Shown: positions 1,252 through 30,741 of the stretch, in pieces
Layout of the letters: every line of letters starts with the position of its first letter
Numbering within the stretch: position 1 is the first letter of the stretch
Assembly: GCA_949752745.1 (NCBI GenBank)
Contig: OX457028.1
Span: 28,236,645-28,300,644, forward strand
DNA length: 64,000 nucleotides
DNA from: Protula sp. h YS-2021
Taxonomy: Eukaryota > Annelida > Polychaeta > Sabellida > Serpulidae
Direction of reading: 5' to 3'
Notes under the pieces: model-generated
Databases searched by the model: none
The model's input: only the letters and a program-made list of their open reading frames with translations
What the model was told of the DNA's origin: nothing
Program-made: the position numbers and the translations under genes

Positions 1252-1406
1252 TCAGTGGAAAGTTGAGCTCGGATACGGGTCAGTAGCGCCTGTTTTTTGC
1301 GAATTCGAGAACAGGATGGTACTAAGATTGAATAGATATCCAATCAGATAAGCCCAGGACCAAAAACGTTCTTGTACATGACGGACTTTAAAAAAAAACC
1401 TTAGAC
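1252..1406 (-). CDS. Exon 20: candidate terminal exon
   Basis: An acceptor TGGCTCCTCAG precedes a phase-1 open stretch of 50 codons (starting LRFFFKVRHVQERF) ending in TGA at 1254-1252. Phase agrees, but that has a one-in-three chance of being accidental, and the aromatic-rich composition does not look like the rest of the protein. The true last exon could lie further left, beyond the window. Confidence 0.3.
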
Positions 1407-4400
1407 CTGAGGAGCCAAAGTGAAAAGCTAGACACAAGGTTCTTGTTCATTTTATTGAAACAAATGACATTTAAAATATTTATTATAAAAATAAGGTGTA
1501 TACCTTCCACGCGGATGTCGCTAACGTTTTTGTTCTTGAAATGACGCATTGCATTCAGGTCCGCCATGAGCATGAGCTTGGCCATGCTCACCCTCTCAAT
1601 GTACCCAGACATGCTTCTGTAATATATTTTATGAACATCTGCGGAATGGCCCAGATGTTTGCACAGATGCTCTACTTCGTGCGATCCCAATCCAAGTACC
1701 TGTTCAATATAAAGCCAAATCATAATGTTCATTAACAATATGCAAGACTGCAGCGCCGACAAAAATTGCACCCATTTCCCTTGAAAACCATCAGGCCATT
1801 ACGCACTAGCATCGTGAAACCTTTGGGTCAAAAGTTAAACATGTTTCGAAGAATATGGTGAAAAGAAGGTATGTTTGAATTAAATGTGCCAGCGAAAAAC
1901 AAGATATCAAAACCGACCAGTAATCACGTGGCCTTTGGTTTGAAATTAAGCAAAAGCTACAAGATGGGCTCTGCGCTGTGGAATACCTATCCGTTTTTAA
2001 TTGGCCTGGCACGGTTCCGCAAAATTTGCGAAGGCCTTTGCGTGAAATTAGCACATTGTTACTTTTCAATATATTGTCCGGAACCTATAATTTTAGGCAT
2101 GCTCTCAAGCAAAATAAGCTTTTGGCCTGGTGTGTTCTCTGCAAAAATTGTTAATCTCGAACCCTGCGAAAAAAATATCCACGCAATCACTTGTGAATCA
2201 CACTGAATTGGGCACGGGGATGGCGCGTTTATTCAAGCTTAGTTTTCCAGTATTTAGTAAAATTTATACACATAAAAATAGCTTACCTGTGACATTGTCG
2301 CAATGTATTTGCGAATATTGACACTGTTTATCCTCTCTGGGCACTTTAATCCACATCTTGCGGTTACAATGACCAACGCATCATAGGATCTTGCGTGGGA
2401 CAAACCTAATAAAAAAGTCTGGATAATAAACAGTGATCAAGTTCAAGCTTGTACATTGGAATTAATCAAAGCGCGTAACTTAGCGAAGCCGACCAATTGG
2501 TGAAGGTCAAAATCTAGTTGAATTTAATTAACATGCGCTTTTTTTAATTTAGAAGGGAGAAGCTTGTCACCTTTTGTTCCCGTTTGTTGTTAAATAAATC
2601 TAACGGAATGCATTTCACAACGACAAACGCACGACTGAAGCTAAATGTCATTATTTTAAGCCGACGAAAAAACTTTCGCTTCCCAGCGTCACCCGAGTTC
2701 ATCGGCCTCGTGTATTTGTTTATTTGCATCACACACATGCACAACTTTTTACCGGCTTACCGGGAGGGGGGGGGGGTAAGAGGAAGGCCGGTAGGGCGAC
2801 AGGTAAATATTGGATTGAACTACAAGCCTTTAAATACCTTCAAAAATATTCTCTTTGCGATGAAAAAAAAAAAGTTTGTTGAAATAGTGATACCTTTCTT
2901 TGCGAAAATGTAGGGGTTGTTCTCAGCAACACCGACAGCGCTTCTTATTTGTTTATTTGTGATGTATTCTAGTGGTGCCTCACATTCTGCTGGCACGATT
3001 ACCGGTACCTTGTGATCGACCTGAAAATTTTCTAGCGCTATCAACTCCAGCAATTGCCACGTATTTATTGTAAATGGTCTAGTTTTTGTTAATATGCAAA
3101 CGAGAAGAAAACACTGTTCGAACACTGCTGTGAATTCATCCTTCATTACATTACTGATTTGTCTTGTTTGATGTTTTATAAATATATATCCTTTATGTAT
3201 ACACAGTATTAATTCACGGGGGCAAGGCAGCGTTCAGTGGGATCAATCGGGCAATTAGCTGAGCTGGGATGTTCACTAGAATAAATACGGTGTATTCCCA
3301 GTCAGTAAAGTGACGTTGACGATCACTTCCTACCTTGCCCCTTATTTTGAACATCGACTGGTTTGCCAGCAGGGTCTTTTCCAACATAGAGAGACTGGGC
3401 ATAGAGTTCAGTTCTTCTTCATCTAACCCTTTCTGTACACCCGAGTACATCGCCAGTCTGGAAATATATCAGTAATACTCTATTAAACAAGCAAGTCCAA
3501 GGAAATGACCCATCCGAGTTACCAAACAAAGAAAGAGAAAACTCTGAAACGAAGACTGTTAGGCCAAAAAATGAAAACTTTGTTTCTGAACGTTACCTTT
3601 TCACAAAAACGAGTTTTCTCAATTGAAATCTTGGAAAAAAAAACAGAAAAAAAAAGAAAAACAAAAAACACAAGCACATCCAGGAACATGCAGAGCAGCC
3701 CACGAACGTCCACGCGTACTATTGAAAAGTAAAAAAAAACCACATCAAGAAAAAAAGAAGTAGATTGGGTTAAAAACCACTTCAAGAACTATGTAAAATG
3801 CTTTTAATTTGAATTTGAAAGCTACCCGAAAAGGGATGTTGAAGAAGTTGAGTTTGGACGATTCACGTATTTACCGACATTTACACAATTTTACAAAATT
3901 TTTAAAACTTCCACTATTTTGGCATTTTTTTTGGTTATTTGTTGTGCGGTCGGTGTTCGATAGCTCAACTTTCGATTTCTCGAACTCTTCGGAATCTCAT
4001 GTACTTTTCTCATAACCATTGTTTTTAACTGCTCTTTACTTACTGAATAGTTAGAATACCCCCCCCCCCCCCAAAAAAAAAAAAATTATGTTACCCTTCT
4101 CGTTTTCAGCAAAAACTACTGTATTACTAAAATATTTAAATACCTAGAAGTTTTCCTCGCTTCGTTTTTACTTAGAGCAAGGAAAAATTTGTGTACTTAC
4201 GTTGCTTGTTCCAACTCGCCGCTTCTTCTTTTGTTGTACAGCAGCAGCCTTGCTTGAACCAACATTGTAATGTTCTTGAACGTCGCATATTCTGGCTCCT
4301 CGGTTTGTTCTAGTTGCTCGTGAATATTTACCAATTCCGACTTCAGATATGAAGCCAATTTCTCTAAGTCTTCGCTAATTGGCAAGCGGAACTCCTTGTT

Positions 4401-7400
4401 CATCTGGCGTTCACGGACAACATTTCGGGCCAATTTGGACACCTTGGGTGTCCACTCCATTTTCATCAGTCGGATGAAGCTTTCACACTCTTTCTTCTCT
4501 CTTTGCGTTTCCACCGACTCCTCATTTTTTAAGGCAAAACCCTCTTTAATGTTGGTCATCTTCACAAGATCGAAGCCAATTTTTAGCGCTTCAGTCGGAC
4601 TTTTTAGATCTTCTTCATCGTCCACATTTCCTTTGGCAATCTGCAGTGCTGCACTGCAGCAGTGATCAAACATAGTGCCGCGGAGACATTCTTTCATCGA
4701 CAGTGATGAGTTATCAGTTAATACTCTCATCTCTTGGAGGAAGCGAGCACTTCTGCGCATCCTCTCGCTTGTGTAGTATTTCCTCCTCGTCTTATTGGCT
4801 ATATTCATGCGCAGCCATTTGTCGCCCAGTCCGACAATAATGGGATCTGACTTCGCAATCGCTGTAACATCATCCACTCGCATAATGGGAAATACTTCCT
4901 CAACAAGCATTTGTGAGGCCTGGTTGGTAATAACTCCCATCAATACATCCGATTTGATGAGCAGCTCTTTGCTCCTCTTGCTTCCACCCAAATGAATGCA
5001 TTCGTTGCCGTGGCGCTTAAGAGAGCTTGTTTTCAGCCATTCGAAGCAGAATGGGCAAGGCTGATAACTGGTGCTGTCGAAATTTTCGTTCGAAGCCCTC
5101 CTGTTAAGTATTATTTCTCCCAATTTATTTTTCATAGTGGTCATATTGTGTTGGTAATCTCCTCGCTGGCGCAACAAACGGCGTAGTTTTTTGGCCTCTT
5201 CCACTGATTCTGGATCATTTTTTTCTTCGAGACTTTTCAAGGTGACAATTTCAGTCTCATTTGTATGGACACTTAAATGTTTCGAAATGTTACTGCTCAT
5301 AAAAGCGCAAAAACAACAACAGTGAAAGTTATCATATATTCTGCTGCTTTTCGTGGCCCGTTCTTGTTCTTGTTTTTTTGTATGTTTCCGTATGAAAATG
5401 CCGGGGTTTTTCATACATCTAGTGATTTTTTCTTCGTCAAGGAGCTTGTGGGAATGCACTAAATTACTAGAAAAAGTTGGTATTGATTCCTGCAAAGTAT
5501 GGCTTGGTGTTCTCAATTTGTCTGCTTTTTGTGAGGTCGCCCTTTCTTTACTCCTCGTCTGGTTATTAGTTGATTTGTCAACGGAGTTTTTCTTTTTCTT
5601 TCCAGAAGTTGCCCCAGAATGCGTGTCAACTTTTGTTTCGTCACAATCACTGCTATCGGAACTGTTTTCGATCTCATCCGGTAAATAATCGTCGTCAAAG
5701 TCGTGAACAGACATAACTGTGGAATCAAAGTCAGCGGTTCGTTCGTCAAGCTGAAGAGGGTTCACACCTTTTGTCACCTTTGTTCTTACAGGAATTACAA
5801 AGTTGGAATCAACACTGACAATGCTGACTGTACTTGTATCAAGACACTCTTTCTCCCATGCTGTCTCTATTGGCTTTGAAGGGTGGCTCTTTACTGGAGT
5901 GCTTACAGCCAAAGGTGCTTCTATATCTAACTCAACACCACAACTGACTGCTTCCATGTTCTCCGGAAAGGCGAGCCTATTAACCTGCACTGTCATTTCT
6001 GTGCAAAAAAAACAACTGATTACCTCTAGAACACCAGATACTGAAGCTTTAAACAAGATTACATTAAAATCTAACATGTGAATTTTTTTTTCGGTTCATT
6101 TTCCACACAATTTTCTTTGGTCGCTGTGCTCGATTTTTTTAACATGTTTGCTTGAAGTAAGGTCTTCTTCCTCCCCAACCTCCCCCTTTGCCCCAGAAGT
6201 GGTTAAGAGACCCCTATTCATCGTGTTTAATAATTTCCAAATTCTATGGCCTTTGGTTAACGGTGCGTGCGTTTGTAAGGGGCACAACTGACATTATCGA
6301 ACGATTTCCAGGAATAATAAAGCCTCATTCATGACTGTATTTTACACAATTAAGTGATTCTACCTGATTTTCGAGGTCTCTTTGATTTCACTGAAGCCAT
6401 TAAATCGTCATGCTCTCGAGTTCTGTCACGAGCTGGGCCAGCTGCTATACTTCCTGGACGATATACGACATGGGTAATTTTTTATTTATATACCACTATT
6501 TTTCGAAATATTATTGGATTCAATTCTTGTTCTTTGAAAAATTAAAACATAAAAGCAAAAGAAAAATTACTAAAGAATTCTCCGGTTCCGTGCATGTCAT
6601 TATTCGTGCGGTCAACTATATTTTACTCAATTAAGTGATTCTACCTGATTTTCGCGGTCTCTTTGATTTCACTGAATCCGCCGAATCGTCACGTTCTTGA
6701 GTTCTGTCACGAGCTGGGCCAGCTTCGTCATTTCCTGTAACAAAAATAGCAAAATATCGGAGTTACGATAAACCGTGATAAGACACGCGTTAGCCTATTT
6801 AAATGCCAGCACTTTTCGAAAAATATATTTATCTTAATTCATATTCTTTTGCATACTTCAACACAAAAAACAAAACAAATTAATCAAAGAATTCTCCGGT
6901 TCTGTGTATGTCACTTTCAGCATGGTCAACTGTATTCTACTCAATTAACTGATTCTACCTGATTTTCGCGATCTCTTTGATATTACTGAGTCCGCCGAAT
7001 CGACACGTTCTTGAACATTGTTATGCTCTTGGCCAGCTTCGATACTTTCTGCAACAAAGAAATATCATATTTATCCGTACTGCGATATAACATGCAACGA
7101 CGCTCCCTTTTTTAATATTTATATTTATTTGAACTTCCGACTTTGAAATGCTCCAAATACAAAAGGCAACAATAAATAACCAAAAAAATATATAAACTGA
7201 CACACCAAATCGCCCCATTCCTACCCTAAGCCCGCTACTGAAGCCACGGGTACTTTTATTATTTGACCAGACAGCATAAAGTCATCGTTTCCATATAAAT
7301 ATATATATATATATATGATTGTTTGTATAAAAACATATACTGGGCTACTAATGGTCACTACAGTACACCTTATTTTCGCGGTACTTGAACCTATCGGGTA

Positions 7401-10400
7401 TTGCTTGCGTAATTTACTTTCATCCGACATTCCTGTTCGATTTTTTTTGCCAAAAATCGAAACTTTGCTCTCTGAAATTATAAACGGTATATTGACAATT
7501 GTTACCTGATGGTGGTATTAACTCTCTTTCTTTTCGTGAAACTGCAATTTCTTTCAGCTCTTCGACAAAAACATCATCATGTCCTAGTTAAAAAGAAAGG
7601 AAAAGTAAAAGTCTCTCATGATCTTCTGTTTTATTTTTAAAGGCACATTTTTTCCTTTACAATAGGCAAATCCTTAGCAAAAAGAATTTTAACAAACATG
7701 TCCTAGGAATTGACCCAACCGAGTTACCAAACAAGGAATGAGAGAAAAACTCTGAAACGAATACTGTTAGGCCAAAAAATGAAGTTTCTGAAATGAAGTT
7801 TGTTTCTGAACGTAATTTTCCGGTTAAAATCTAAAAAAAAACAGAGAAAAAAAAACAAAAACAACACAAGCATGTCCAGGAACACGGAGAGCAGCCCACG
7901 AACGTTCACGCGTACTATTGAAAAGATTCAATGAAAAAAAACCACATCAAGAAAAAAAGAAGTAGATTGGGTTAAAAACCACTTCAAGAACTATGTAAAA
8001 TGCATTTAATTCGAATTTGGAAGCTACCTGATTTTCGTGGTCTCTTTGATTTCACTGAATCCGCCGAATCGTCATGTTCTTTAGTTCTGTTACGAGCTGG
8101 GCCAGCTTCGTCATTTCCTGTAGCAAAATATTGGAGTTACGATAAACCGTGATAAGACACGCGTTAGTCTATTTAAATGCCAGCATTTTTCGAAAAATAT
8201 ATTTATCTTAATTCGTATTCTTTTGCATACTTCAACCCAAAAAACAAAGCAAATTAATCAAAGAATTCTCCGGGTGTTTGTATTACAGGTACCGACAATT
8301 AACTTGCGTAATTTACTTTCATCCGACATTCCTGTTCGATTTTTTTTGCCAACAATCGAAACTTTGCTCTCTGAAATTATAAACGGTATATTGACAATTG
8401 TTACCTGATGGTGGTATTAACTCTCTTTCTTTTCGTGAAACTGCAATTTCTTTCAGCTCTTCGACAAAAACATCATCATGTCCTAGTTAAAAAGAAAGGA
8501 AAAGTAAAAGTCTCTCATGATCTTCTGTTTTATTTTTAAAGGCACATTTTTTCCTTTAAAATAGGCAAATCCCTAGCAAAAAGAATTTTAACAAGCATGT
8601 CCTAGGAATTGACCCAACCGAGTTACCAAACAAGGAATGAGAGAAAAACTCTGAAACGAATACTGTTAGGCCAAAAAATGAAGTTTCTGAAATGAAGTTT
8701 GTTTCTGAACGTAATTTTCCGGGTAAAATCTAAAAAAAAAAACAGAGAAAAAAAAACAAAAACAACACAAGCATGTCCAGGAACACGGAGAGCAGCCCAC
8801 GAACGTTCACGCGTACTATTGAAAAGATTCAATGAAAAAAAAACCACATCAAGAAAAAAAGAAGTAGATTGGGTTAAAAACCACTTCAAGAACTATGTAA
8901 AATGCATTTAATTCGAATTTGGAAGCTACCTGATTTTCGTGGTCTCTTTGATTTCACTGAATCCGCCGAATCGTCATGTTCTTGAGTTCTGTCACGAGCT
9001 GGGCCAGCTTCGTCATTTCCTGTAGCAAAATATTGGAGTTACGATAAACCGTGATAAGACACGCGTTAGTCTATTTAAATGCCAGCATTTTTCGAAAAAT
9101 ATATTTATCTTAATTCGTATTCTTTTGCATACTTCAACCCAAAAAACAAAGCAAATTAATCAAAGAATTCTCCGGGTGTGTGTATTACAGGTACCGACAA
9201 TTAAAGAATTATGGAGATAACGTTTCATTGTCATTTTTGGCAATTTTTTGAAAACTTTCAAAGTCCCGTTATTTAACAATGGTGGGTTTTTCGGCGCTTC
9301 ATAAAAAATAACTAGAAAATTGTAGTGCAATATGAAGATCAAATCAAAACTACAGAAGAGGATTTATTTTGGACAAAAGGTTAAACACCGACCCTTTTAA
9401 AATAATAGTGCAGAACCACCCGACAAGGTCGGCTTGTCTAAAAAACATTAACTTTTAGCACTAAAACGTGCAGTCTGAATGTCTACAACACAAACCTTTG
9501 CAAAAATCTTCCGGCAAACTAAATGAACAAGTTTCAGCCTGCGATTCTTTGATCATTTCCGCAAAGCATTCTCGAATTCTTTGTCCCTCGTTGGTCTGAA
9601 ATGAATTCACAGTTTGAACAAAAATTTGACAAGAATATCTGCTGCGGTAGCGAAGACAAATCCTTGACTGTTCCACTTCGATACTATTTATGTCCACTTT
9701 TAAACTCACGCTTCTTTAATTTATTTTGCCAAATTGAAAGGCCGAATAATTCCGGGTTTTCAGCCAAATATCTACGACTGTTAACATTCCGACACTCGAC
9801 ATTTAAAATCAGTCGCCGAAGTACTGATTGAACTCCCATAAGCACTCCTATTTTGCGAAATTTTTTCGCCCTGCTTATAATTTAGTGCCCCTTAAGGCAC
9901 TAAAAGCCGATTGGATGAAAATCAAAGAGAAGTTACATATTACGCTTCAAGTTATCTGAAAAAATGTTTTCTATTAAAGAAGTGGACAGTTGTACGCACT
10001 TGGTGCAAATTCAGTCACTTTTACTAATATCTGCTGAAGCGGAGGAAAAAAAGCATTGACGCAGAATAATTCACACACTAGCCGACACCCACCCCACCAG
10101 CAATTCCCTCTTTCCTGCGAACGAGTCATTTTTTTAACATTTTTCTTATTATTCATTTAACACAACTCGACATATGGCACAATGATCGACAGAATCATCT
10201 TCTGGAAAAGGGGTTGTTATCTTATGCAGTGTGAGGAGCAGGAGCTTTGAATTGTCCCTGACCCAAAACATACCTTTTCCTGTTGCTCACCATCAGTATC
10301 GCCAGCACCAGGCACTGAAATTAAAGGCTTTTAATTAGAGAACAAAAAAAAAAAGGTTTTCAGTACATCCTTCAACGCCAGTATTAAAAGCTGCAGCGAA

Positions 10401-13400
10401 ACCTCTGTTAATGAACCGCCAATGGAAGTGTTATTTCAGGTCTGAATTATCATGATTCCTTGTAACTTCCATTTAAAGATCATCTTAGAATAAAGAATAG
10501 TTTTGTGGGCCCCAAAGGCGTTCTTTACATGGAGGTGTATGACATAGGGTTTACCTTAACACAAATCACTCAGGCACGGGTATTCTGGGCAATAATTCCC
10601 TCCTCCGTCGGGAATTATTTGCCACAGAATACCCGCGCCTCCGTGGTTTCTTTAATTCTTATTAAACATTATTAAATATCAGCTAATATTTTCGTTTATA
10701 ATCATCATTTATACTTGGTTCATCTCACATAGCTTGTGTATTGAAAGCTTTTAACTTCCTTTTTATCAATGTTGCAACTGAACCCTTGGGAAAAGGAGAG
10801 GTAAATACAAACAAGCATGTCCAAGGGGCTTCTAGACGTTTCGGCCCAAGACGTTTCGGCCCACATCTGAACTGCCAAGACATTTCGGCCCACTCCCCCC
10901 CCCCCCAAGACTTTTCGGCCCAGTTTGCCAAGACTTTTCGGCCCAGGTCATTTCGGCCTACTAAAAAAGTTATTCCTTAGAAAGAGTTCAAGATTGAGGC
11001 TCATGTATTCATAAGCTATTTCAAGACAGCTGTGAAATTTTATTTTTCTAACCAACTCCAGCGTCTGATGGCTTTCAACAATTACTTGCTGATCATCCTG
11101 GTGTGTGTTGGAATATTTCTCTATTGCAATCCCAAATGCATTTCTCACACCTACTCTGGTATTTAATGGTTAATTAACTGACTGACTGTCGTGTGTGATG
11201 TGCTTTTCTTTGATTACAATTTCCTTACCCTATCATCCTGGTAAATACCTCATTCCACCAAATTACATAGCAGTGCCTATTTATCAACTTAGTTATTCAA
11301 ACAGAATTCCAGGCGACACAGACTCATATATATCATTTTATAATTTGTAACAACACGGATAATTCATCGAAGTCAGAATCCAATTGATCAAATCTTCACG
11401 AGGCTGCCTATGGCGTTTCAAGTTAATTGCAATTACATATCATTGATCTAATTCCTGCATGCTTATAAAGGTTTTTCAGGTTTTCATCAGTTAAAATTAC
11501 AATCGTTAAAGAAATAGCAGTATAAGCAATCCGAGATAATACATAACATGCGATTTAAATTCAAATAGGAATAGCTACAGTTTCAATTTATATCAAACTG
11601 CACTGCCAATGGCTTTGAAATTATGCATTAACTAAATGCCTAACACAAAATCAAAACATCTGCAGAATGATAGTTTAGTGGGCCGAAACGTCCTGAGCCG
11701 AAAAGTCGTGGGGAAAAGTGGGCCGAAACGTCTTGGGCCGAATCGTCTATGGGAGTCGGCCGAAACGTCTTGCTTGCTGTCCAAGGACATGACCCAGCCG
11801 AGGTACCAAACAAGGAAAGAGAGAAAAATTCTGAAACGAATACTGTTAGGCCAAAAAATGAAGAATTTGTTTCTGAACGTAACTTTTCAGCCAAAAAAGT
11901 GAATATCAGGTAAAAAATAATGTAAATAGGGTGAAAATTGAGAAAAAAAAATAGTTAGTTCGAGAACCCAAACTAGACCCAGAAATAATTTAACGAAGCA
12001 ACTTGCAAATACTAATCATTAATACTTGGGTATGAACAACAGGGAAAAAATATCGTATGCAACAATCAACGATTTAACTACTCATTCTTGATGTGCAAAC
12101 TTCATAATGGTACGTACGAGCATACGGATTTGGATTCAATCGGCCCTGTATAAAATATTTATGATATAAAATAAAGACTTTCGCATATGGCGCATATTTT
12201 TTCCGCGTACACCAGGAAAAGTAACGCTGGTTACAAATGCGCCATGGAGAACACCAAATTATCCCTGTAAACAGGTCGTCGGAAAACAGTCGTCGGAGAA
12301 AAGTATGAAAAGATATTCCGAAAATTGGTTCAAACAGTATTTAAACACTTCAAGTTAAACGCTAAAATAGCTTAAATTTGCCCTTCACAATCCGACAAAG
12401 TTGACATGTTAAATCATGTTTGTTTTATTTCAGAAAAAAATACTTTCTTCAATTTGCTATACATAAAGAAACAAACGTAAAAATGTAAAGCACAATTTCG
12501 ATAAAATACAGAAAAACTAATTGTGTATCAGTGATGTTGAGAACCAAAAAGTGTCCGACCGGACGCCCGCCCCCCCCCCCCCTCCCCACGCTCCCGAACC
12601 CGCGGTTCGAAATACAGGACAGTTTGTACAATCGCACAACTATTAAATTATTTATTAATTCCGATTCATTTGCGAACAAATAAGAGAAAAAATATTAATA
12701 CTGGGAAAACTAGGAACGTTTGAAGGCCTGACAGATTTTCCACATACATTCCCCATACATTACTCTATCACTTATTTTAGCATCTTTGAAAAGCAAACTA
12801 TTTCTCAAACGGGCTCCTTATGAAGTTTTACTGTGATTCAATTCACAAATGGCAAATCGAAATTCAACCGAGGAAAATACCATACTCCCAACAGTGGTCT
12901 TCTGATATACACTGCAGAACTAACTATCTGAGATCTTTGCTTTGGGAATAATTTATTTGTCAGTCGAATAATAGCATACGCCAACAAACAACTGAAATGA
13001 GAATATGTAAGTGAGTGCCGAAACTTGCAAAATAAATGCTAACTAGAAATGAGTCCGTTGCAGCACGTATAGCCCGCCTGCCCCCATTTGTCATAGCCTT
13101 GAGAGAAGTTTTCAGGCACATTCTTGACAGAAGTTAATGACATAAAGCTCAATACGTGTGCATGTACTGAAAAACGTGTTTTTTAGCCTAAGTTCGGGCG
13201 ACCCTCATGGACTGACAAAAAAAAAGACAAGTTCGGTCCACAAAATAAAAACTGAGTTGACAGCCCTTCTGCCCTTAAGTTCAGAGGTCAAGGGGAAGTG
13301 CAAAACTACGACCCATACGATTTCATTCCATATAGATTTCAGGTTTATTGAGGCAAAACCCTAGGACAAGCTCAGTCCACGAAACTAAAATCTGCGCTAA

Positions 13401-16400
13401 TAGCCGTTCTGCACCTAAGTTCAGAGGACAATCACGGACCGGCGAATGGACCGACGCCGACGAAAAGTGCAGGTGTACAACTACTACCAATAAGTTTTCA
13501 ATCCATATAGGTTTCAAATTGATTGAAGCAAAACCCTAGGACAAGTTCGGTCCACAAAACTTAAAAGATGCACTGATAGCCGCTCTGTGCCTAAGTTCAG
13601 AGGTCACTCACAGACCGACGAAAAAACCGACGCCGGCCCAAAGGAGAGATGCACAACTACAACCCATAAGCTCTTAATCCATATAGGTTTCAGGTTGATT
13701 GAAGCAAAACCCTAGGACAAGTTCGGTCAACAAAACTTAAAAATTGCGCTAATAGATGTTCTGCCACTCATGTATGAAGTAACAACGGAGCCCAAATTTG
13801 TTTTCACCAAATAAGGCTTATTTCATCACATAAACACGTTTTTAGGCCTAATATGAAATTTTTGTCTTGGGTCACGCACACACGCACACACACATGCACG
13901 GACAAGTCAAAAACATAATAGCCCTTCCGACCATTTGTCAATCGTATATCGTTAAGGATGAGTTAACGCCAAAATTAGGGCTAGTTTTTACAACTTGGAA
14001 CTCTCGCTATGCCTATGCAGAATTCAGGCTTTACCATTTTTTGAAGATAAGAAAGTGTAAATTTTTGATAGGGAAACATTTTACGCATTAAATATGAATT
14101 GAAAAAGCAGGAGCCCTTTTTACAAATGCTCATAGGGATAAGTTGAAGCTGCGAAGGTAAAGGTTTACTAAAACTAAAAAGTCTACAGGCAGCAATTCCA
14201 AGCTAATAATTCCAAAACCTAAGGGAAATATGTTCTACGCCTCAAAATGAGATAATTTACGCCAAAACTGCAGACAAAATTATTGATTGAAGATAAAATT
14301 TTGCGATATCTACCTGTCTCCAAAACATGTTGTTGTCATCCTTTCCATAATCAAAGAGAAGTTCTGTGCCAGCCGGGATGTGGTTTCCAAGTGCAAAAAT
14401 GCAAAGATGCGGGGTTTTGTCAATTTGAACAACCTTCACTTTGCAGTTTGGCTTTGCGTTGTGCGAATCGTTAATACAACGACCAATGCCCTTGCTATTA
14501 GTAGCATCCACACTGAAAAAATATCCGTCAAGTTTCTCGAATCAAAAATTAACAATACTGAATTTTTATCAATCAAACAGAGGTTAATTCATATCTGATA
14601 CAGGCTGCGAAACTTTAGTTTTTTTTTTCAAGATGGATAAAGTATGTGCTCTTTAGACTTAGGTCTTGATAAATATCTATATTTATGCGAAGCCTTTTTG
14701 AAATGCTGCAATGTGTAAATAGTATTTAACAGCAGTGTTGCCACTCACTTTGCCATGAAAAAAGTATAAAAAAAGTATTTTTAAAAGTATTTCAAAAAAA
14801 AAGTATAAAAAAAGTATTTTTTAGGGCAAAATTTTTCGGCTGGCGCCTTCGGCGTTCGCATTTATTTCTGAACATTACATTGCGGTATGTAATCTGAAAT
14901 CATATAGCAGGTTAATACATTCAAATATCGTGACTAGAAAACGATAACAGTATAGGAATAAACAACACATTATACTTTGATACGCAAAAGATATGTTTCG
15001 TGCGAATAAGCAAAAAAGATAAAAAATAAAGTAAAAAAAATAAAAAAGATGTTCTTTCTTTGGCAAATAAACATATTATTGTTAACAAGTGAGCATCTGC
15101 TCGTGATCTAAAGGTCACCTTTTGATATTACTTTTAATAACCAATACCAATACATAAGTAAAAAAGTATATACTTTTATAAGGAAACAACAATGGAAACA
15201 AGGAAAATGGTAAAACGTAGTTAGTGTCGGAGAGGGAAATATTTTCCTGAAAGGAATGCAGAAATTGAAAAACAAGTACAGTAAAGTATAAAAAAAGAAT
15301 AAAGGCAAAAAAGTATAAAAATACATAAGCAAACAGCAAATACTTTTATAAGCAAAAAAAAAAATTAAACAAGGAAAATATTTTCGGAGAGAGAAACATT
15401 TTTCCTGAAAGGAATTAAGAAATAAAAAAAAAGTTTTTTTTTCGTGATTCCAAAAAAAAGTATAAAAAAGTATGAAGGCAAAAAAAAAGTATAAAAAAAA
15501 TTATAAAAGTATAAAAAAAAGTATTTAAGGCCATTTTTCAAAAAAAGTATATACTTTTAAAAAAAGTATAGTGTGGCAACACTGTTAACAGCTTGTCCAT
15601 GACAATAACCCCCACCCCCAGTTAAAAATAAAATAAATCTTAAGAAAAGTGCAGCTTTTTATTTTTTCTACTCAGAAATAATACAGCTAAATAATATGTG
15701 ACTCTGGACTAGCCATAATCAATATTTTCGTCGTGAATCCGGAATCGTTAATCTCTGAACTTGGAAAGTAGGGCTGCAAACTGGATCCATATTTTAAACC
15801 GGTTATTTGGTGAAACTTATAAAGACTGCATCTTACAAAACATCTAAGCAGGGAAAAAGCATAATTATGTCTAGCTTCTATTCTGTGATTCAGTGAAATA
15901 ATGTCGTGTTTGTTCCGTCTTTGTCATAAGATTGCAAGAAAAATTTCGTAATCTATTCGGTTCTCAAAACTGCATCTGAATATTCGATTAAAGTAATTTT
16001 AAAGAATACTCCAGATATTCGTCGCAGCTCTTATAGACAGGCAATAACTCGCAACAAATTCACCACTGGAATTATCTGTCAAATGGAAGAGCGAAACTGC
16101 ACAACAGAGACCGGAAAGTGTTTCAAGTTGGATGATAAAGGGATTTTTATCTAAAGCCTTTAACTAGACGCCACAGAAAACGACTGACGATTCTTTAACT
16201 CTCTTGTTGATCTGTATATTGAAAAAGTTCTGAACAGATTGAGTCATTGGCTTGGGGTAAAACGTCTGAAGGTATGGACTTAAGGGTATTGTGGAGGATA
16301 CGTCGGTTGGATGGGAGGCATTAACTCCTGGGATATCGTCCAAAACCCGATATTGACCTTATTTGTGGGACAGGAATATATGCATGAACAAGGGAAAAGA

Positions 16401-17310
16401 AAAAAACTCACCAATATGATGCGCCGGCATGATCGAAAAAGTAAAGATAGCTGCCAGATCCACATGCATCAGTATCGTACAGTCGACGAAAACCTTCGGA
16501 ACCTGCAAATGTATCGGATCACTTGTGCGGGACTGACACTGTGTTTAGGGAACGGGGCAATGATTATTTAAAGCCAAGACAAATAATACTAGAGTTCTTT
16601 TATCGCAAATTGTATGCCCATTTTCATTCTTTTCTCTTATTCGCTGTTGTTATTTTTTTGTTTCGAGATACTTACCAGTCAGTAATTGCCCTTGGTACGT
16701 GCAAATAAATTCCCCCGCACAAATTTCTTTCACAGCAAACGCTCCCCATCCTTTATTTGTGTCGATGAATTTTATTGCAACATCGTTGTTTTCTATCGTT
16801 CCACGTCGACATGCCTCCTCGGCATATTGCTGGGGTGTTTTGCGGCCAGGCACTGGAAACGAAAATAAAAATGAAACTCGAATATTTTCAGTTACTTAGC
16901 AAGTTCAAAACATTTAAGCTAAATTCTGGCCTTAATTTGGAAAGAATGTACCTTTCTCCCTATGTCTCATGTTGAGTGGTACAAGAACAAGTCGTGCAAG
17001 CAACAATTGTCAACACACAGCCATATTTTATGCACAAACGCATAACTAATCCAATACCACTGTATTAGCTTATTGTAAAATAAGGGTATTTCTAGCAGTG
17101 ACAATCACACAAGCAAAGACAAAATACGCGCGAAAATCAGGGCACGCGATTGTTTTTAATTGTTTTTTTTTTCTTACAGATTATTAACAGAAACGTTGAC
17201 TCACTGATTTTAACTAATTTAAGATACTCCCATTTCGACACAAAGGCGGGATTATTAGAGCTTTCAGGAAGTGATGTGTTCATTTTGGTGTATTTGCGTT
17301 TTCGCAACAT
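1252..17310 (-). CDS. SET-domain / zinc-finger / tyrosine-recombinase fusion gene (20-exon model)
   Basis: Model: join of complements 17205-17310, 16676-16852, 16412-16502, 14314-14512, 12118-12145, 10274-10314, 9496-9595, 8927-9016, 8405-8482, 8028-8117, 7506-7583, 6959-7048, 6645-6734, 6364-6453, 4201-5998, 3334-3457, 2894-3020, 2287-2405, 1504-1699 and, less surely, 1252-1406. Each intron starts GT and ends AG, all phases agree and no stop interrupts, giving 3867 nt or 1288 aa. Domain order: SET (about 60-181), acidic linker (192-247), repeated basic-tailed segments (248-450), zinc-finger-like motifs (677-694 and 764-783), and a recombinase domain with R1041, R1164, H1190 and Y1199. Family knowledge: KMT5A-type SET proteins methylate histone H4 K20, and Crypton-type tyrosine recombinases cut and rejoin DNA. 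I infer a nuclear, chromatin-linked recombinase or a domesticated derivative. I believe fish LOC proteins with related architecture exist, but this is from memory and unchecked. Confidence 0.85.
1504..1699 (-). CDS. Exon 19: recombinase box III and nucleophile tyrosine
   Basis: Acceptor TATTGAACAG and donor GAAG|GTATACAC, phase 0 in and 1 out, 65 codons. It encodes VLGLGSHEVEHLCKHLGHSA followed by DVHKIYYRSM. LGH (H1190) is box III, and Y1199, nine residues later, sits exactly where the nucleophilic tyrosine lies in this superfamily. The catalytic set R, R, H, Y is therefore complete, so the enzyme may be active. Confidence 0.85.
2287..2405 (-). CDS. Exon 18: recombinase box II
   Basis: Acceptor TTTTTTATTAG and donor CAG|GTAAGC, phase 1 in and 0 out. 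It encodes LSHARSYDALVIVTARCGLK and ends with SVNIRKYIATMSQ. R1164 in IRKYIAT aligns with the second catalytic arginine of tyrosine recombinases (classical H-x-L-R-H-x-x-A-T). The His three residues before the Arg is Val here. This exon has no long ORF and is identified by splice phase plus motif. Confidence 0.8.
2894..3020 (-). CDS. Exon 17: recombinase catalytic domain, segment 3
   Basis: Acceptor AAAATTTTCAG and donor AAAG|GTATCACT, phase 0 in and 1 out, 42 codons. It encodes VDHKVPVIVPAE, then IRSAVGVAENNPYIFAKK. The K-x-P-V-x-V strand and the N-P-Y-x-F-A motif are typical of the stretch between boxes I and II in animal Crypton-like recombinases. A Lys here (the HKVP context) may be the conserved hairpin lysine. 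Confidence 0.78.
3334..3457 (-). CDS. Exon 16: recombinase catalytic domain, segment 2
   Basis: Acceptor TATATTTCCAG and donor AAG|GTAGGAAG, phase 2 in and 0 out, 41 codons. It encodes LAMYSGVQKG, then an acidic stretch and LEKTLLANQSMFKIRGK. In the Crypton-like families I know, the segment after box I has this L-x-x-L-E-K ... IRGK layout before the beta-hairpin. Reading past the donor gives unrelated sequence. Confidence 0.78.
3488..3832 (+). repeat. Dispersed A-rich repeat, copy 1 (in intron 15)
   Basis: It shares the order AAGTCCAAGGAAATGACCC, GTTAGGCCAAAAAATGAA, GAGCAGCCCACGAACG and CACTTCAAGAACTATGTAAA with copies at about 7697-8021 and 8596-8920, and in part with 11779-11900. It has no coding capacity. 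I could not define terminal repeats. Confidence 0.7.
4057..4084. repeat. Poly-C then poly-A low-complexity tract
   Basis: A run of C followed by a run of A inside intron 15, near the donor of exon 15. Similar C-runs occur near 630-647 and 12567-12583. Confidence 0.8.
4201..5998 (-). CDS. Exon 15: zinc-finger-like region and N-terminal recombinase core
   Basis: Long exon: acceptor TTTTTTTTGCACAG, donor GTAAGTACAC, phase 1 in and 2 out, about 599 codons (residues 450-1049). First part is acidic and serine-rich (DDDYLPDEIENSSDSSDCDE), then lysine-rich. Two metal-binding motifs follow: C677-x2-C-x9-H-x3-H694 and C764-x2-C-x11-H-x3-C783. Next comes an alpha-helical stretch (DKWLRMNIANKTRRKYYTSE onward) like a recombinase core-binding domain. 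The exon ends with ARLLLYNKRRSGELEQA, a good match to tyrosine-recombinase box I (x-x-G-x-R-x-G/S-E-L) with catalytic Arg. An ATG at 5996 could serve as an alternative start, giving a shorter protein without the SET domain. Confidence 0.88.
6364..6453 (-). CDS. Exon 14: 90-nt repeat micro-exon (copy A)
   Basis: Donor AATCAG|GTAGAATC is strong. The acceptor CGTCCAG has no good pyrimidine tract, so this copy may be spliced weakly or skipped. Phase 1-1. It reads SIAAGPARDRTREHDDLMAS then VKSKRPRKSG. It is open in the expected frame. Confidence 0.5.
6645..6734 (-). CDS. Exon 13: 90-nt repeat micro-exon (copy B)
   Basis: Acceptor TGTTACAG and donor AATCAG|GTAGAATC, phase 1-1. It reads NDEAGPARDRTQERDDSADS then VKSKRPRKSG. 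Both flanks are also shared with copies A and C (same donor-side intron start and an AATTCTCCGGTT tract), so the copies arose by tandem duplication of a unit of about 280-310 bp. Confidence 0.65.
6959..7048 (-). CDS. Exon 12: 90-nt repeat micro-exon (copy C, most diverged)
   Basis: Acceptor GTTGCAG and donor AATCAG|GTAGAATC, phase 1-1. It encodes SIEAGQEHNNVQERVDSADS then VISKRSRKSG. The reading frame is kept although many bases differ from copies B, D and E, and several substitutions change residues. This suggests an older duplicate that stayed coding. Confidence 0.62.
7506..7583 (-). CDS. Exon 11: 78-nt micro-exon (first copy)
   Basis: Acceptor TTTTTAACTAG and donor CATCAG|GTAACAATT, phase 1-1. 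The translation is the same as the copy at 8405-8482. No related exon is seen next to the older micro-exon copies A-C, so only the recent 899-bp duplication doubled it. Confidence 0.62.
8028..8117 (-). CDS. Exon 10: 90-nt repeat micro-exon (copy D)
   Basis: Same structure as copy E: acceptor TGCTACAG, donor TCAG|GTAGCTTC, phase 1-1. It reads NDEAGPARNRTKEHDDSADS then VKSKRPRKSG, differing from E by only a few bases. Confidence 0.65.
8405..8482 (-). CDS. Exon 9: 78-nt micro-exon (second copy)
   Basis: Acceptor TTTTTAACTAG and donor CATCAG|GTAACAATT, phase 1-1, 25 full codons beginning HDDVFVEELKEIAVSRKERE and ending LIPPSG. It is charged and probably helical. It is an exact-position duplicate of the exon at 7506-7583, shifted by 899 bp. 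Being phase-symmetric, it can be included or skipped without changing frame. Confidence 0.62.
8927..9016 (-). CDS. Exon 8: 90-nt repeat micro-exon (copy E)
   Basis: Acceptor TGCTACAG and donor AATCAG|GTAGCTTC, phase 1-1. It encodes NDEAGPARDRTQEHDDSADS followed by VKSKRPRKSG. The basic tail looks like a nuclear localisation signal. It is nearly identical to copy D, 899 bp away, because both lie in a recent tandem duplication. Three more diverged copies (A, B, C) lie further downstream in the gene. Confidence 0.65.
9496..9595 (-). CDS. Exon 7: linker exon leading into the micro-exon array
   Basis: Acceptor TTCATTTCAG and donor CAAAG|GTTTGTG, phase 0 in and 1 out, 33 codons. It starts TNEGQRIRECFAEMIKES and ends LPEDFCK, probably helical in the middle. 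The other two reading frames of this exon contain stops, which fixes the phase. It sets the phase-1 register used by all seven following micro-exons. Confidence 0.7.
10274..10314 (-). CDS. Exon 6: short acidic linker exon
   Basis: Acceptor TTTAATTTCAG and donor AAG|GTATGTTTT, phase 1 in and 0 out. It encodes PGAGDTDGEQQEK. The composition (Gly, Asp, Glu, Gln) is typical of a flexible linker. Its phase-0 end matches the phase-0 start of exon 7. It may be a cassette exon, because skipping it together with exon 5 keeps the frame. Confidence 0.6.
10576..10636. repeat. Fold-back (inverted repeat) in intron 6 flank
   Basis: Left arm ACGGGTATTCTGGGCAATAA (to 10600) pairs with the right arm from 10610 to 10636, allowing a small bulge, around a 9-nt centre. 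It could be a tiny MITE remnant or a hairpin in the intron RNA. Confidence 0.6.
10827..11778. mobile_element. 952-bp non-autonomous DNA transposon with subterminal repeats
   Basis: Flanked by the 8-bp direct repeat GTCCAAGG (10819-10826 and 11779-11786). Left end carries repeated GACGTTTCGGCCCA-type boxes to about 10965, and the right end carries the same boxes inverted (about 11678-11770). The host sequence is the dispersed A-rich repeat, whose uninterrupted copy near 3488 has a single CAAGTCCAAGG, so the empty site is known. No transposase ORF. An 8-bp duplication with many subterminal boxes fits a hAT- or P-like superfamily. It lies in intron 5. Confidence 0.75.
11779..11900 (+). repeat. 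Dispersed A-rich repeat, split copy
   Basis: GTCCAAGGACATGACCCAGC through GTTAGGCCAAAAAATGAA to the AACTTTTCAG region matches the other copies. Its left part lies before 10826, separated by the 952-bp insertion. Confidence 0.7.
12118..12145 (-). CDS. Exon 5: 28-nt micro-exon (candidate)
   Basis: Exon 4 ends in phase 0 and exon 6 needs phase 1, so a phase 0-to-1 exon is required. An acceptor TTTTATACAG precedes GRLNPNPYA plus one base, and a donor GTACGT follows. This fits exactly and gives a proline-rich bridge between the SET domain and the acidic linker. Alternative: exon 4 joined straight to exon 7 (both phase 0). Another reading ignores this donor and runs to TAA at 12074, giving a 23-codon alternative C-terminus for a stand-alone SET protein. 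Confidence 0.45.
12567..12590. repeat. Poly-C tract
   Basis: Long C-run in intron 4 interrupted by a few T. The glycine-rich ORF on the opposite strand comes from this tract. Confidence 0.8.
13180..13765. repeat. Tandem repeat of about 140-176 bp units (3-4 copies)
   Basis: Recurring blocks: CTAAGTTCAGAGG near 13276, 13414 and 13590; AAAACCCTAGGACAAG near 13355, 13530 and 13708; ATCCATATAGGTTTCA between them. Units are diverged and unequal in length. It lies in intron 4. I see no exon in it. Confidence 0.75.
14314..14512 (-). CDS. Exon 4: C-terminal SET catalytic half
   Basis: Acceptor TATTTTTTCAG and donor CAG|GTAGATATC, phase 2 in and 0 out, 66 codons. It contains CVDAT (125-129), GRCINDSHNAKPNC (135-148), PHLCIFAL and ELLFDYG (175-181). 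These correspond to the KMT5A blocks YCVDAT, the pseudoknot NHS motif, PHL and LLYDYG with its catalytic-site tyrosine. The usual NHS is NDS here (D140 in place of His). Reading on past the donor soon reaches a stop, so splicing is needed. The exon lacks a Cys-rich post-SET domain, as in SET8. Confidence 0.88.
14733..15584. mobile_element. 852-bp hAT-like non-autonomous element
   Basis: Ends are CAGTGTTGCCAC and its inverse GTGGCAACACTG, flanked by the 7-bp direct repeat TTAACAG (14726-14732 and 15585-15591; 8 bp if one mismatch is allowed). The inside is built from many AAAAAAGTATA-type blocks in both orientations and has no transposase. CAGTG ends and a 7-8 bp duplication fit the hAT superfamily. 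It lies in intron 3, between SET exons 3 and 4. Confidence 0.7.
16412..16502 (-). CDS. Exon 3: central SET segment
   Basis: Acceptor ATTTGCAG and donor GTGAGTTT, phase 1 in and 2 out. The deduced segment runs GSEGFRRLYDTD then GSYLYFFDHAGASY, matching by position the KMT5A stretch that links the two SET halves (a hydrophobic Y-x-Y-F-F strand before the YC-V-D-A motif). It is too short to be found as an ORF, but phase and homology both place it here. Confidence 0.8.
16676..16852 (-). CDS. Exon 2: N-terminal half of the SET domain
   Basis: Acceptor TTTCCAG and donor GTAAGTATC, phase 1 in and 1 out, 58 codons. It encodes KTPQQYAEEACRRG and then the SET opening with KGWGAFA (residues 69-75, the cofactor-binding GxG-type motif) and YQGQLL (88-93), the counterpart of the Y-x-G-x-L strand of KMT5A. 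The spacing between these motifs matches SET8-class domains. This is the clearest sign that the gene begins with a lysine methyltransferase domain. Confidence 0.85.
17205..17310 (-). CDS. Exon 1: start and basic N-terminus of the SET-recombinase gene
   Basis: ATG at 17310-17308 opens 35 codons beginning MLRKRKYTKM and ends ATC A, followed by a consensus donor GTGAGT (phase 1). It joins exon 2 in frame. The next possible in-frame ATG is 9 codons later. A YY1-like GCCATCTTT (plus-strand reading, 17447-17455) lies about 140 nt upstream of the ATG and could mark a TATA-less promoter, but this is weak. No protein family is recognised in this exon itself. Its basic start is consistent with nuclear import. 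Confidence 0.6.
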
Positions 17311-19959: not shown

Positions 19960-21684
19960 TTAGTTAATACTGCGCAAGGCTGTAGGTAAAGAGTTCCACA
20001 AACGTGGAGCATAGTTCCTAAACGCACGATCTCCAAATTTACTGCAAGTTCGGAACTCGATGAGTTGAAACTGGTAGTCCGATCGTGTAGTCCTATGAGC
20101 TGGACGCCAGGAAATGAGTTCGTTAAGGTATTCTGGTGCTCTGCCGTGGAGACAGTTATGTGTGAATACAAGAATTTTAAATTCTATCCGCTGCTCGATA
20201 GGAAGCCAATGTAAGGATTGTAACAAGGGAAAAGCGTCTTCGCACTTGGGCACACGGTAGATAAGTCTGGCTGCAGCGTTTTGGACAGATTGAAGTCGGT
20301 TCAATAAGGAACGATTTATACCAAATAACAAGCTATTTGAAAAGTCCAGTCTTGAAATAACGTATGCGTGAACGAGTGTTTTGGTAGCAAATGGCGTGAG
20401 GTATCGACGTATCCGGTTGATATTTTTTATGAAATACATACTGCTTTTAATTTTTTCTGAGATAAATCTTTCCATAGACATATGAGTGTCGAAAATGCAC
20501 CCAGGTTCTTGACGCAGTCACTTGAGTTAATCGTTGTATTGCCGATGTTAAGGGATAGGGATGGTGTTTTGCGAAAACTGTAGGAGGAGCCGAAAAGAAT
20601 AAGTTCTGTCTTATCTTCGCTTAATTTGAGCATACTGATTTTCATCCAGTTTTTTACAGCAGCTATGCATTTCTGAACACAGTTTACAGCTTTGTCTGGA
20701 CTGGTGCGAGGATCAAAGGACACGTATAATTGGCTATCATCGGCATAAAAATGGTGAAGTAAACCAAAGCGACTAGCGATATCTGCGAGAGGTGTTACGT
20801 ACATGGTAAATAGCAGCGGACCCAGGACTGACCCCTGCGGCACGCCGAAGCCAACTGTGACATCGGGCGATAGTTGACGATTGATCAAGACACATTGAGA
20901 ACGTTGATCTAGATACGATTTTATCCAATTGAGGGCGTGGCCTTTGATACCAAAACGAGTCTCAAGACGGTGAAACAGAATCGAGTGGTCAATGGTATCA
21001 AATGCAACGCTAAGATCTAACATTGCGAGGGCAACCATTTTCTTCTCATGGAGAGCAGATAGTATATCATTTTGCACGCGAAGGTGCGCACTTTCAGTAG
21101 AGTGGAACATTCTGTACGCAGACTATTTTGACACAAAACTTAGATTGGATATGGGTCGATAATTGGACATGGGTCGGTATCAGGATCAAGCGAGGCTTTT
21201 TTAAAAGAGGTGTGACTACTGCACGTTTGAGTGTGCTAGGGACCTCTGCTTTCTTAAGTGAGAGGTTGATAATCCGAGTAAGCATTGTCGAGAGCTCAGG
21301 CAAACAGGCTTTGAGTAGGCCCGTTGGTATTGGATCGAGGCCACCGCTAGACGATGGAGATTTACATATTAAAGATTCAGCTTCACTAACAGTCGCAGGT
21401 TGAAACTCAGTTAAAGACTGTCCACCGGCTGAAGAGTGATCAGGCAAAATATTTGAGCGTAGTTCATCAAAAGTAACTAGTGTTTCTTCGAGACTAATAT
21501 CATTTCGAATACGCACAATTTTATCAATAAAAAACTCGCAGAATACGGTTGGAAGTGCTTCCTGCGGTATATTTGATGGATTGTGCTTTGATTTATTCCA
21601 GCCTAGGATCTCCTTGGTGACGTTGAACAGGCGTTTTTGATCTTGGCCGCATTCTAAGGTTAGAGAGAAATTCAGCCTTTGCAT
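19960..21684 (-). pseudogene. Reverse transcriptase of the L2/CR1-like LINE, frameshifted
   Basis: Three overlapping frames cover one RT. 21684-21094 holds the linker and fingers region. 21110-20427 holds motif A (VAFDTIDHSI), motif B (GVPQGSVLGPLLF), motif C (YADDSQLY) and motif D (EDKTELILFGSS). 20481-19960 holds the C-terminal block (LQSVQNAAARLIYR, HWLPIEQRI, LWNSLPTALR). At least two frame changes (near 21100-21180 and near 20450-20480) inactivate it. The YADD catalytic pair is intact, so the decay is moderate. Confidence 0.85.
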
Positions 21685-21700
21685 CGTCTCGAAGACAGTT

Positions 21701-24300: not shown

Positions 24301-27300
24301 TACTGTCTTCAAAGGCATCATACTTCTTCCAATGCTTAATATCATCAGAAAGGGGTGCACCTAGTCAAATAATTCAATAACAGGAAACGGTGTGTCGAAA
24401 TTAATCAAATAATACCTCTAAAACATAATCTTTAAATACATTGTACGTGTCAAAACCGTAAAAATGTTTAACATGTAGTCCATGATATTACTTGATCCAC
24501 AGTCCTTAACATTATGTGGTAACAAACCACATAATGCAAAGGACCCTATCAAATCTTTAAAATTCAGTTCGAGCTCTCGAAATAACATTTGTTATTTCCA
24601 AAGATATACAATAAAATCATTTCTTAGCGTAGAAATACTATCCATGCTAGCTTCTGCTACCTAAATTTGCTGAGTACCAGGAGTCTCAAATGGTAATATT
24701 GTTTGATCTACAGCCCTTAACCTTATGTGGTAATAAACCACATAATGCAAAGGACCCTATCCAATCATTTTTTTATAATTAAGTTATAGCTCTCAAAAAA
24801 AATTCGATGCAACGAAATGCCTTTAATGCAACGCCTTTAGCGAAGGCACATGAAAAGTTCGAGGTATGCTACTTCAATACTGCCGCCTTAACAAAGTGTA
24901 AAATAATCATATTACTTTTGTGTATTGGGTCATAGTACCAGGAACTAGTACCAGCAAACTCAAGTGTTTCGACCATTGTGCATCTTAGCTAGCTTTAAAA
25001 TACTTAAGTAGAAAAGCAGATTTCGGTGTACTGTCGTCAAAGACATCATACTTATTCCAATGCCGTACATAATCAGTCAGGGGCACACCTAGTCAAACAA
25101 TTCAACAAAATCCAACGGTGTGTCTAAATAAATCAAATAATACCTCTAAAAAGATAATCTTTAAATACATTGTAAGCATCAAAACCGCAAAAATGTTTAA
25201 CTTGTAGTTCCTGATATTATTTGATCCACAGTTTTTAACATTATGTGGTAACAAACCATATAACGCAAGGACCTATCAAATCTTTAAAATTCAGTTCGAG
25301 CTGTCGAAATAATATCTATTATTTCCGAAGAATATAACAAAATTACTTATTTGTGAAGAAATACTTTGCATGCTAGCTTCTGCTACCTAAATTTGGGCAG
25401 TATAGGAGTCTCAAGTGATGATTTTGCTTGATATACAGTCCTTAACCTTATGTGGTAACAAACCACATAATGCAAAGGACCCTATCCAATCTTTTCATAA
25501 TTAAGCTATAGCTCTCTAAATAATTTCGACGCAATGAAATGTCTTTAATGCAACGCATTTAATGAAGGCACATGAAAAGTTCGAAGTATGTTACTTTAAT
25601 ACTGGCGTCTAAACAAAGTGTAAAATAATGATATCACGTTTCGAGTATTGGGTCATAGCTTAATGCTGGAGATACGTCAAAGAACGGGTATATTTAGGTA
25701 CTACTTTAGCTATCTAATTTAAGAATATTATTAAAATATGCGCAATATATATCTGCAACATAAACCCTGAGACACTTAAGACTCTCTGTATTCTATTAAA
25801 ATTCCAAAGGTATATCACAAAATAACTTCTAAAGGAACAAACAATTTGAGTGCTAGCTTCTGTTACCTATATTCGCTCAGTACCAGGAGTCTTAAGTGTT
25901 TCAACGACTGTGCATCTTAACTAGCCTCAAAATACTGTCGTCAAAGGCATCATACTTACTCCAATGCCTTATATCATCAGTCAGATGTACACCTAGTCAA
26001 ACAATTCAAAAAATCAAATTGCTTGTCTTAATAATTTAAATAATACTCTAAAAAGATAATCTTTAAATACATTGTAAGTTTCAAAACCGTAAAAATGTTT
26101 AACATGTAGTCCATGATATTACTTGATCCACAGTCCTTAACATTATATGGTAACAAAACACATAATGCAAAGGACCCTATCAAATCTTTAAAATTCAGTT
26201 CGAGCTCTCGAAATAACATTTGTTATTTCCAAAGATATACAACAAAATCATTTCTTAGCAAAGAAATACTTTCCATGCTAGCTTCTGCTACCTAAATTTG
26301 CTCAGTACCAGGAGTCTCAAATGATAATATTGTTTGATATACAACCCTTAACCTTATGTGGTAATAAACCACATAATGCAAAGGACCCTATCCAATCATT
26401 TTTTATAATTAAGTTATAGCTCTCGAAAACATTTCGATGCAACGAAATGCCTTTAATGCAACGCCTTTAGCGAAGACACATGAAAAGTTCGAAGTATGCT
26501 ACTTCAATACTGCCGCCTTAACAAAGTGTAAAATAATCATATTTCTTTTGTGTATTGGGTCATAGTACCAGGAACTAGTACCAGCAAACTCAAGTATTTC
26601 GACCATTTTGCATCTTAGCTAGCTTTAAAGTAGTTAAGTAGAAAAGCAGATTCGGTGTACTGTCGTCAAAGACATCATACTTATTCCAATGCCGTATATC
26701 ATCAGTCAGGGGCACACCTAGTCAAACAATTTAACATCCAACGGTGTGTCTAAATAAATCAAATAATACCTCTAAAAAGATAATCTTTAAATACATTGTA
26801 AGCATCAAAACCGCAAAAATGTTTAACTTGTAGTTCCTGATATTATTTGATCCACAGTTATTAACATTATGTGGTAACAAACCATATAACGCAAGGACCC
26901 TATCAAACCTTTAAAACTCAGTTCGAGCTTTCGAAATAATATCTGCTATTTCTAAAAATACATCACAAAATTACTCATTTGTGAAGAAATACTTTGCATG
27001 CTAGCTTGTGCTACCTAAATTTGGGCAGTATAGGAGTCACAAGTGATGATTTTGCTAGATCTACAGTACTTCTCCTTATGTGGTAACAAACCACATAATG
27101 CAAAGGACCCTATCCAATCTTTTTATAATTAAGTTATAGCTCTCTAAATAATTTTGACGCAATGAAATGCGTTTAATGCAACGCAACGCCTTTAATGAAG
27201 GCACATGAAAAGTTCGAAGTATGCTACTTCAATACTGGCGTCTAAACAAAGTGTAAAATAATGATATCACGTTTCGAGTATTGGGTCATGGCTTAATGCT

Positions 27301-30300: not shown

Positions 30301-30741
30301 TGTGAAGAAATACTTTGCATGTTGTCTTCTGCTACCTAAATTTGGGCAGTATAGGAGTCTCAAGTGCTGATTTCGCTTGATCTACAGTCCTTAACCTTAT
30401 GTGGTAACAAACCACATAATGCAAAGGACCTATCCAATCTCTTTTAATTAAGTTACAGCTCTCTAAATAATTTCGACGCAATGAAATGCCTTTAATGCAA
30501 CGCCTTTAATGAAGGCACATGAAAAGTTCGAAGTATGCTACTTCCATACTGGCGTCTAAATAAAGTGTAAGATAATGATATCACGTTTCGAGTATTGGGT
30601 CATAGCCTAATGCTGGAGATACGTTAAAGAACGGGTATATTTAGGTACTACTTTAGCTACTTAATTTTAAAACACCATTAAAATATACGCAGTATATATC
30701 TACAACATAAACCCTGAGACACTAAAGACTCTCTGTATTCT

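Follow-up and report, generated by a model that had tools for sequence, protein, structure and literature searches.

The gene examined here lies on the minus strand between positions 17310 and 1252 of a 64,000-nucleotide (nt) stretch of DNA, hereafter the window, from the serpulid annelid Protula sp. h YS-2021 (assembly GCA_949752745.1, contig OX457028.1, positions 28,236,645 to 28,300,644 of the forward strand). With a probability of roughly 0.65, it belongs to a family of proteins, widespread in animals, that join a SET domain to a tyrosine recombinase (YR), most likely a lineage of intron-bearing DNA transposons with a captured KMT5A-type SET domain. The observations behind this reading are the architecture of the proteins, the folds predicted for relatives, the conservation of both active sites, the joint divergence of the two domains and, in some fishes, nearly identical copies. 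The fusion has been conserved across many species, and the lineage is most likely mobile; mobility of the window copy, and methylation by its SET domain with a particular substrate and purpose, are what we infer beyond this. The family would be a new variant of the SET-carrying and the YR-only DNA transposons, and is not a proven Crypton.

A preliminary description of the window had proposed one intact split gene of 19 exons and 1288 amino acids (aa). The single phase-consistent frame stands, with GT-AG borders at all introns and no internal stops, but the recount gives 20 exons and 1249 aa. Exons 2-4 are supported by homology to SET domains (Pfam SET, expect value (E) 2.3e-16; KMT5A among Protein Data Bank (PDB) sequences, 2.3e-21). 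Exons 15-19 are supported by 43% identity to the Pecten protein P0002, and the four splice junctions between them show no pairwise gap in alignment to a relative. No homology support was found for exon 1, for exons 5, 6 and 7, or for the last exon (1289-1252). The exons that link SET to YR are phase-1 spacer exons, and the resulting domain order is also found in relatives (see below). The gene is present in single copy within the window.

A search with residues 450-1249 returned 8 proteins, among them two from Pecten, one from Saccostrea and one from the cichlid Archocentrus centrarchus (P0008). P0008 carries a SET domain, a repeated spacer, zinc fingers and a recombinase in the order of the window protein, to which BLASTP aligns it with 31% identity over 178 residues in SET and 25% over 581 in the recombinase part. 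A second search, with P0008 as query, gave 469 matches, and 119 of the best 120 were new; these best 120 and the first-search proteins form the relative set, and profiles were seeded from the window protein and its relatives. Both domains occur in 110 of the 128 proteins (window included), always with SET first, and the SET match is full length in 106 and short in four. The other 18 have the recombinase only and include three molluscs and several fragments. The 109 two-domain relatives (of 127) represent 42 named species among the matches listed, namely 41 fishes and the frog Ranitomeya variabilis, and none of the 109, drawn from the best 120 of 469 matches, is annotated as a recombinase. That one protein unites a KMT5A-like SET domain with a tyrosine recombinase, as proposed, is thereby borne out, and the order recurs in fishes and a frog. 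Distances between SET domains follow those between recombinases (r 0.865 for 50 distinct proteins, against at most 0.32 in 2000 permutations), and the correlation persists without the window protein (r 0.824; highest permutation, 0.24).

The window protein has a SET8-type SET domain, matched by Pfam SET and, among PDB sequences, most closely by KMT5A. KMT5A/SET8 is also closest by fold to the predicted model of the relative P0064, and all 50 structure matches listed are SET proteins. Among the 106 full-length SET domains (window included; human SET8 numbering), 105 retain Y245, 104 retain Y334, and all have N298 and Y336; the window has Phe at position 334. The structure 3F9X is a Y334F SET8 crystal with dimethyl-lysine, as listed in PMC3529403, and because the window residue matches it, a switch from mono- to dimethylation is a reasonable prediction by analogy. 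An N-D motif at positions 298-299 and a P-N-C-K stretch are common to the window SET and the fish fusion proteins and absent from human KMT5A; this shared signature argues that the SET-YR fusion arose once. A protein search with the SET part alone (residues 36-200) gave 70 candidates, none at E<=1e-6.

Motifs of the recombinase were counted from the alignment columns of all 128 proteins. The catalytic residues are kept almost throughout (R in 123, K in 121, R in 121, H in 123 and Y in 125), with all five present in the window protein, and the predicted model of a relative has the YR fold, that is, the YR/topoisomerase IB fold. Pfam gave no match, either with residues 450-1249 of the window protein or with the YR of 8 relatives. 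A PDB profile search with profile A1 gave three matches, at E 0.15 or worse and none to a recombinase; hhalign aligned the YR profile to XerD with motifs in order at E 0.11, which is not used as proof, and found no meaningful match to lambda Int; and Foldseek placed XerH at the top with E 8.4e-3 and returned no match below 1e-3. Weak PHROGs matches (best 3.6e-4, in P0008 over the SET end and spacer, to a family of unknown function) are likewise not used. The profile check suggested at the outset thus yielded a Pfam match for SET and no significant profile match for the recombinase, which is recognized by its five catalytic residues and by the YR fold in a relative. The original label, Crypton-like tyrosine recombinase, is borne out in its second half, and Crypton-like in the strict sense remains tentative. 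DUF3504, a Crypton-derived Pfam family, was not matched at E values up to 1 (window) or 5 (8 relatives), and the first residue of box II, His in the R-H-R-Y tetrad of Cryptons, is T in 117 proteins, V in 4, A in 3, I in 1 and a gap in 3, but never H. Searches of viral contigs (with P0008, P0002 and profiles A2 and A1) and of prokaryote genome contigs (with A2) gave pattern matches and no confirmed relative.

Mobility is suggested by the distribution of copies. In Misgurnus anguillicaudatus, nine LOC-named genes are 98.8-100% identical in YR and 98.6-100% in SET (36 pairs); four further rows, on contigs of four distinct lengths, could represent these genes as annotated a second time. In Alosa sapidissima, three genes on contigs of 38.6, 36.8 and 30.8 megabases agree fully in their YR and SET domains, and the YR of a fourth gene is 64% identical. 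Festucalex and Brienomyrus have two genes each with identical domains. Whole proteins of near-identical pairs are 90-93% identical with gaps counted (4 pairs). Goldfish and gibel carp harbor several lineages at about 50-70% identity. To judge from these comparisons, recent copies at several loci together with old coexisting lineages are a transposon pattern. The many introns had been taken as a sign of a maintained gene rather than a transposon copy, and this argument finds no support: many isoforms are predicted for several of the near-identical copies found at different loci, so that the presence of introns is compatible with spread. A DNA-based element can multiply with its introns in place. 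Around the window gene, three pairs of inverted repeats were found, none resembling element ends, and the Pfam scan found no reverse transcriptase inside it, an enzyme that DIRS/Ngaro retrotransposons encode in the same element.

Several observations weigh against this reading. With the query that lacks SET, just 1 of 8 relatives has a SET domain, and most members of the larger set came from a SET-containing query, which is a bias; P0001, P0006 and P0007 are possibly incomplete, as they stop 12 residues from where box I begins, at about the border of exon 15. In the recombinase tree (41 rows), which has long branches and from which no claim of horizontal transfer is drawn, the window protein groups with mollusc and other rows that lack a SET match and lies outside the vertebrate clade. 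SET may have been lost or left unannotated in those rows, or gained twice, and the shared signature speaks against a double gain. The Brienomyrus pair lies on short contigs and could be allelic, and segmental or whole-genome duplication is a possible source of the fish copies. One alternative is that two neighbors, a KMT5A-like gene next to an independent YR gene, were wrongly joined by the reading frame; connecting exons 5-14 are without homology support, and mollusc YR proteins without SET exist. However, 109 of 127 relatives have the two domains in this order, their divergence is correlated, and the window and the fishes have a SET signature in common, which together make such a misjoining very improbable.

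A different objection concerns activity: the window member could be immobile and non-methylating, its frame intact and its SET domain serving as a nucleosome tether, which would be compatible with a transposon origin. Position 299, His in human SET8, is Asp in all 106 full-length domains, the window SET departs at the otherwise conserved R228 (W) and E244 (T), and the window holds one copy of the gene. On the other hand, Y245, N298, Y336 and the five YR catalytic residues are kept and no stop interrupts the 20 exons, and such a pseudo-enzyme is an unlikely account, if one to be kept in mind. Slightly less likely still is a host gene family in which an old transposon recombinase and SET were co-domesticated, then kept and multiplied as developmental chromatin regulators, for example in zygotic genome activation. 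The constrained SET and YR active sites would fit this, as would the KMT5A-like genes reported from Hydractinia (65), Hydra (24) and sea urchin (61); those of Hydractinia and urchin mostly have an N-terminal SET, some are expressed in embryos, and their C-terminal ends are alike between the two animals (PMC10368294). That article describes them as predicted host methyltransferases, and its main text contains neither 'recombinase' nor 'integrase'. The genes resemble the present family in the SETD8-type, mostly N-terminal SET and in their many copies, and we infer that the Hydractinia and urchin proteins end in a recombinase of the SET-YR family. However, the domesticated DUF3504 Crypton genes are described as having lost the catalytic site (PMC3212892), whereas the SET-YR family almost always keeps it, and near-identical copies at multiple loci together with several deep lineages inside a single species fit a transposon better.

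Comparison with known systems places the transposon reading in context. Relative to KMT5A (SET8, PR-Set7), which is closest in sequence and fold and shares Y245, N298 and Y336, the family differs in the N-terminal position of SET within a long protein, in the N-D motif and, in the window, in F for Y334. SETMAR (Metnase) also joins a SET methyltransferase domain to a transposon recombinase; it is one host gene of primates, made of SET and a mariner transposase of the DDE type. The present family differs in its KMT5A-type SET, its YR enzyme and its many species and copies, and scanning the window protein against Pfam revealed no mariner or other transposase family. HarbingerS and MuDR are lineages with DDE transposases. 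Such DNA transposons are reported to have taken up SET histone methyltransferase genes in oomycetes (PMC12730594, citing Kojima and Jurka 2014), and so are alike in the captured SET, whereas here the enzyme is a YR, the hosts are animals and both domains form one polypeptide. Cryptons (CryptonA in animals) share YR as the sole recombinase seen, presumed spread at the DNA level and animal hosts. In addition to the differences in DUF3504 and box II, the SET-YR family also has SET, motifs resembling zinc fingers and a domain at the C-terminus, and animal Cryptons are described as having no C-terminal domain (PMC3212892). No report of a SET-YR fusion was found in the open literature, a scope that excludes subscription papers, preprints and Repbase Reports; the reviews PMC9406493 and PMC10380595, in the text available, use 'Crypton', 'SET domain' and 'tyrosine recombinase' in separate contexts only.

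If the family is mobile, the zinc-finger motifs, with a C-terminal helix-turn-helix-like domain in relatives, may bind the element ends or the target, and monomers would assemble on paired short sites. The Arg-Lys-Arg-His-Tyr center would then cut and rejoin DNA, probably via a circular intermediate. The SET domain could bind nucleosomes and, at either the donor or the target site, methylate histone H4 lysine 20 (H4K20) or a lysine related to it, which may serve to coordinate recombination with replication, to open or select chromatin, or to counteract silencing. The preliminary description had suggested, as hypotheses, that the fusion could direct integration, silence its own copies or be a host-domesticated regulator. 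The chances seem evenly balanced that this is an unrecognized superfamily of animal YR transposons with a built-in H4K20-type methyltransferase that marks recombination sites, and that the 'KMT5A-like host methyltransferases' of cnidarian and urchin embryos are such transposons, expressed at genome activation.

The exons, all on the minus strand, are as follows. Exon 1 (17205-17310) is tentative, encoding a basic N-terminus of 35 aa with an ATG and a GTGAGT donor in phase 1; aligned fish proteins begin near the equivalent of exon 2. SET starts in exon 2 (16676-16852; KGWGAFA) and continues in exon 3 (16412-16502), both with Pfam and PDB sequence matches, and its active-site end (CVDAT, IND, PNCK, LLFDYG) is in exon 4 (14314-14512; Pfam match and alignment). 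Exon 5 (12118-12145, 28 nt), exon 6 (10274-10314, 41 nt) and the spacer exon 7 (9496-9595) are tentatively placed by phase and splice sites alone. Spacer unit A (90 nt, phase 1-1) forms exon 8 (8930-9019), which is 97.8% identical to exons 10 (8028-8117) and 13 (6645-6734), as well as exon 14 (6364-6453) and the diverged exon 12 (6959-7048; 71-80% exon identity to other A units). Unit B (78 nt, phase 1-1) forms exons 9 (8405-8482) and 11 (7506-7583). Exons 8-11 are carried by a frame-preserving 902-nt tandem duplication (7404-9204, strand not assigned; 98.8% identity). Spacer exons are more alike than both their flanks in 9 of 10 pairs; purifying selection on them is not claimed, because most of the codon changes alter the amino acid (in the seven diverged pairs, 2-3 of 9-18 are synonymous).

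Exon 15 (4201-5998) encodes an acidic region, the zinc-finger-like motifs CCFC..H..H and CPFC..H..C, a helical part and YR box I (NKRRSGE); it is 55% identical to P0001 and 43% to P0002, and its first part has no Pfam match. The remaining YR exons were placed by alignment: exon 16 (3334-3457) up to the beta-hairpin (IRGK), exon 17 (2894-3020; VPVIVP), exon 18 (2287-2405; box II, NIRKYIAT) and exon 19 (1504-1699; LGH and the catalytic Tyr, HKIYYR). Exon 20 (1252-1289), the last exon of the preliminary description, is doubtful, having no counterpart in aligned relatives, which extend further. After box I, P0002, P0003, P0004 and P0008 have 306-338 residues and P0005 has 267, against about 200 in the window model (to the end of exon 19), so that the true 3' end of the gene probably lies beyond the window start. 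Several introns contain a dispersed repeat (3483-3829, 7688-8031, 8587-8933 and 11778-11897; about 82-88% identical), and intron positions 10833-10864 and 11678-11753 hold a 15-nt unit, AGACGTTTCGGCCCA, in inverted and tandem arrangement.

About 3 kilobases upstream of the gene, an open reading frame at 20427-21122 matches RVT_1 (1.2e-22) within a broken minus-strand reverse transcriptase (19960-21699), which we take by its motifs to be of the long interspersed element type. Positions 27000-57000 hold a large array of diverged tandem units with a recurring 14-nt motif, AATGAAACGCCTTT (sequence read: 27000-32200). Four minus-strand matches resembling transfer RNA (tRNA), barely above the Rfam cut-off, occur at 30913-30985, 39539-39611, 43637-43709 and 44623-44695, and probably represent a tRNA-derived short interspersed element inserted in the array. 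Among the relatives, P0064 (from R. variabilis, the only frog listed) falls inside the fish clade of the recombinase tree with weak support (82/55), where horizontal transfer and lineage loss are indistinguishable; weaker BFVD matches to its model are a fish adomavirus SET protein (E 0.011) and an uncharacterized ranid herpesvirus 4 protein (E 0.027). P0055 and P0061 (2057 and 1664 aa) are a much diverged fish pair whose joint branch of 1.76 is unsure, the rows being cut too far upstream.

If the transposon reading is true, animal mobile DNA contains an enzyme that writes a histone mark and is physically joined to the element's recombinase. SET-YR proteins would then be a natural counterpart of the Cas9-methyltransferase fusions that have been engineered (PMC9894255). 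The expansion of host H4K20 methyltransferases ascribed to embryonic chromatin reprogramming in hydrozoans and sea urchins would become a testable question about transposons, and fish genetics gains a defined family, possibly mobile to this day, for asking whether a transposon chooses or edits chromatin.
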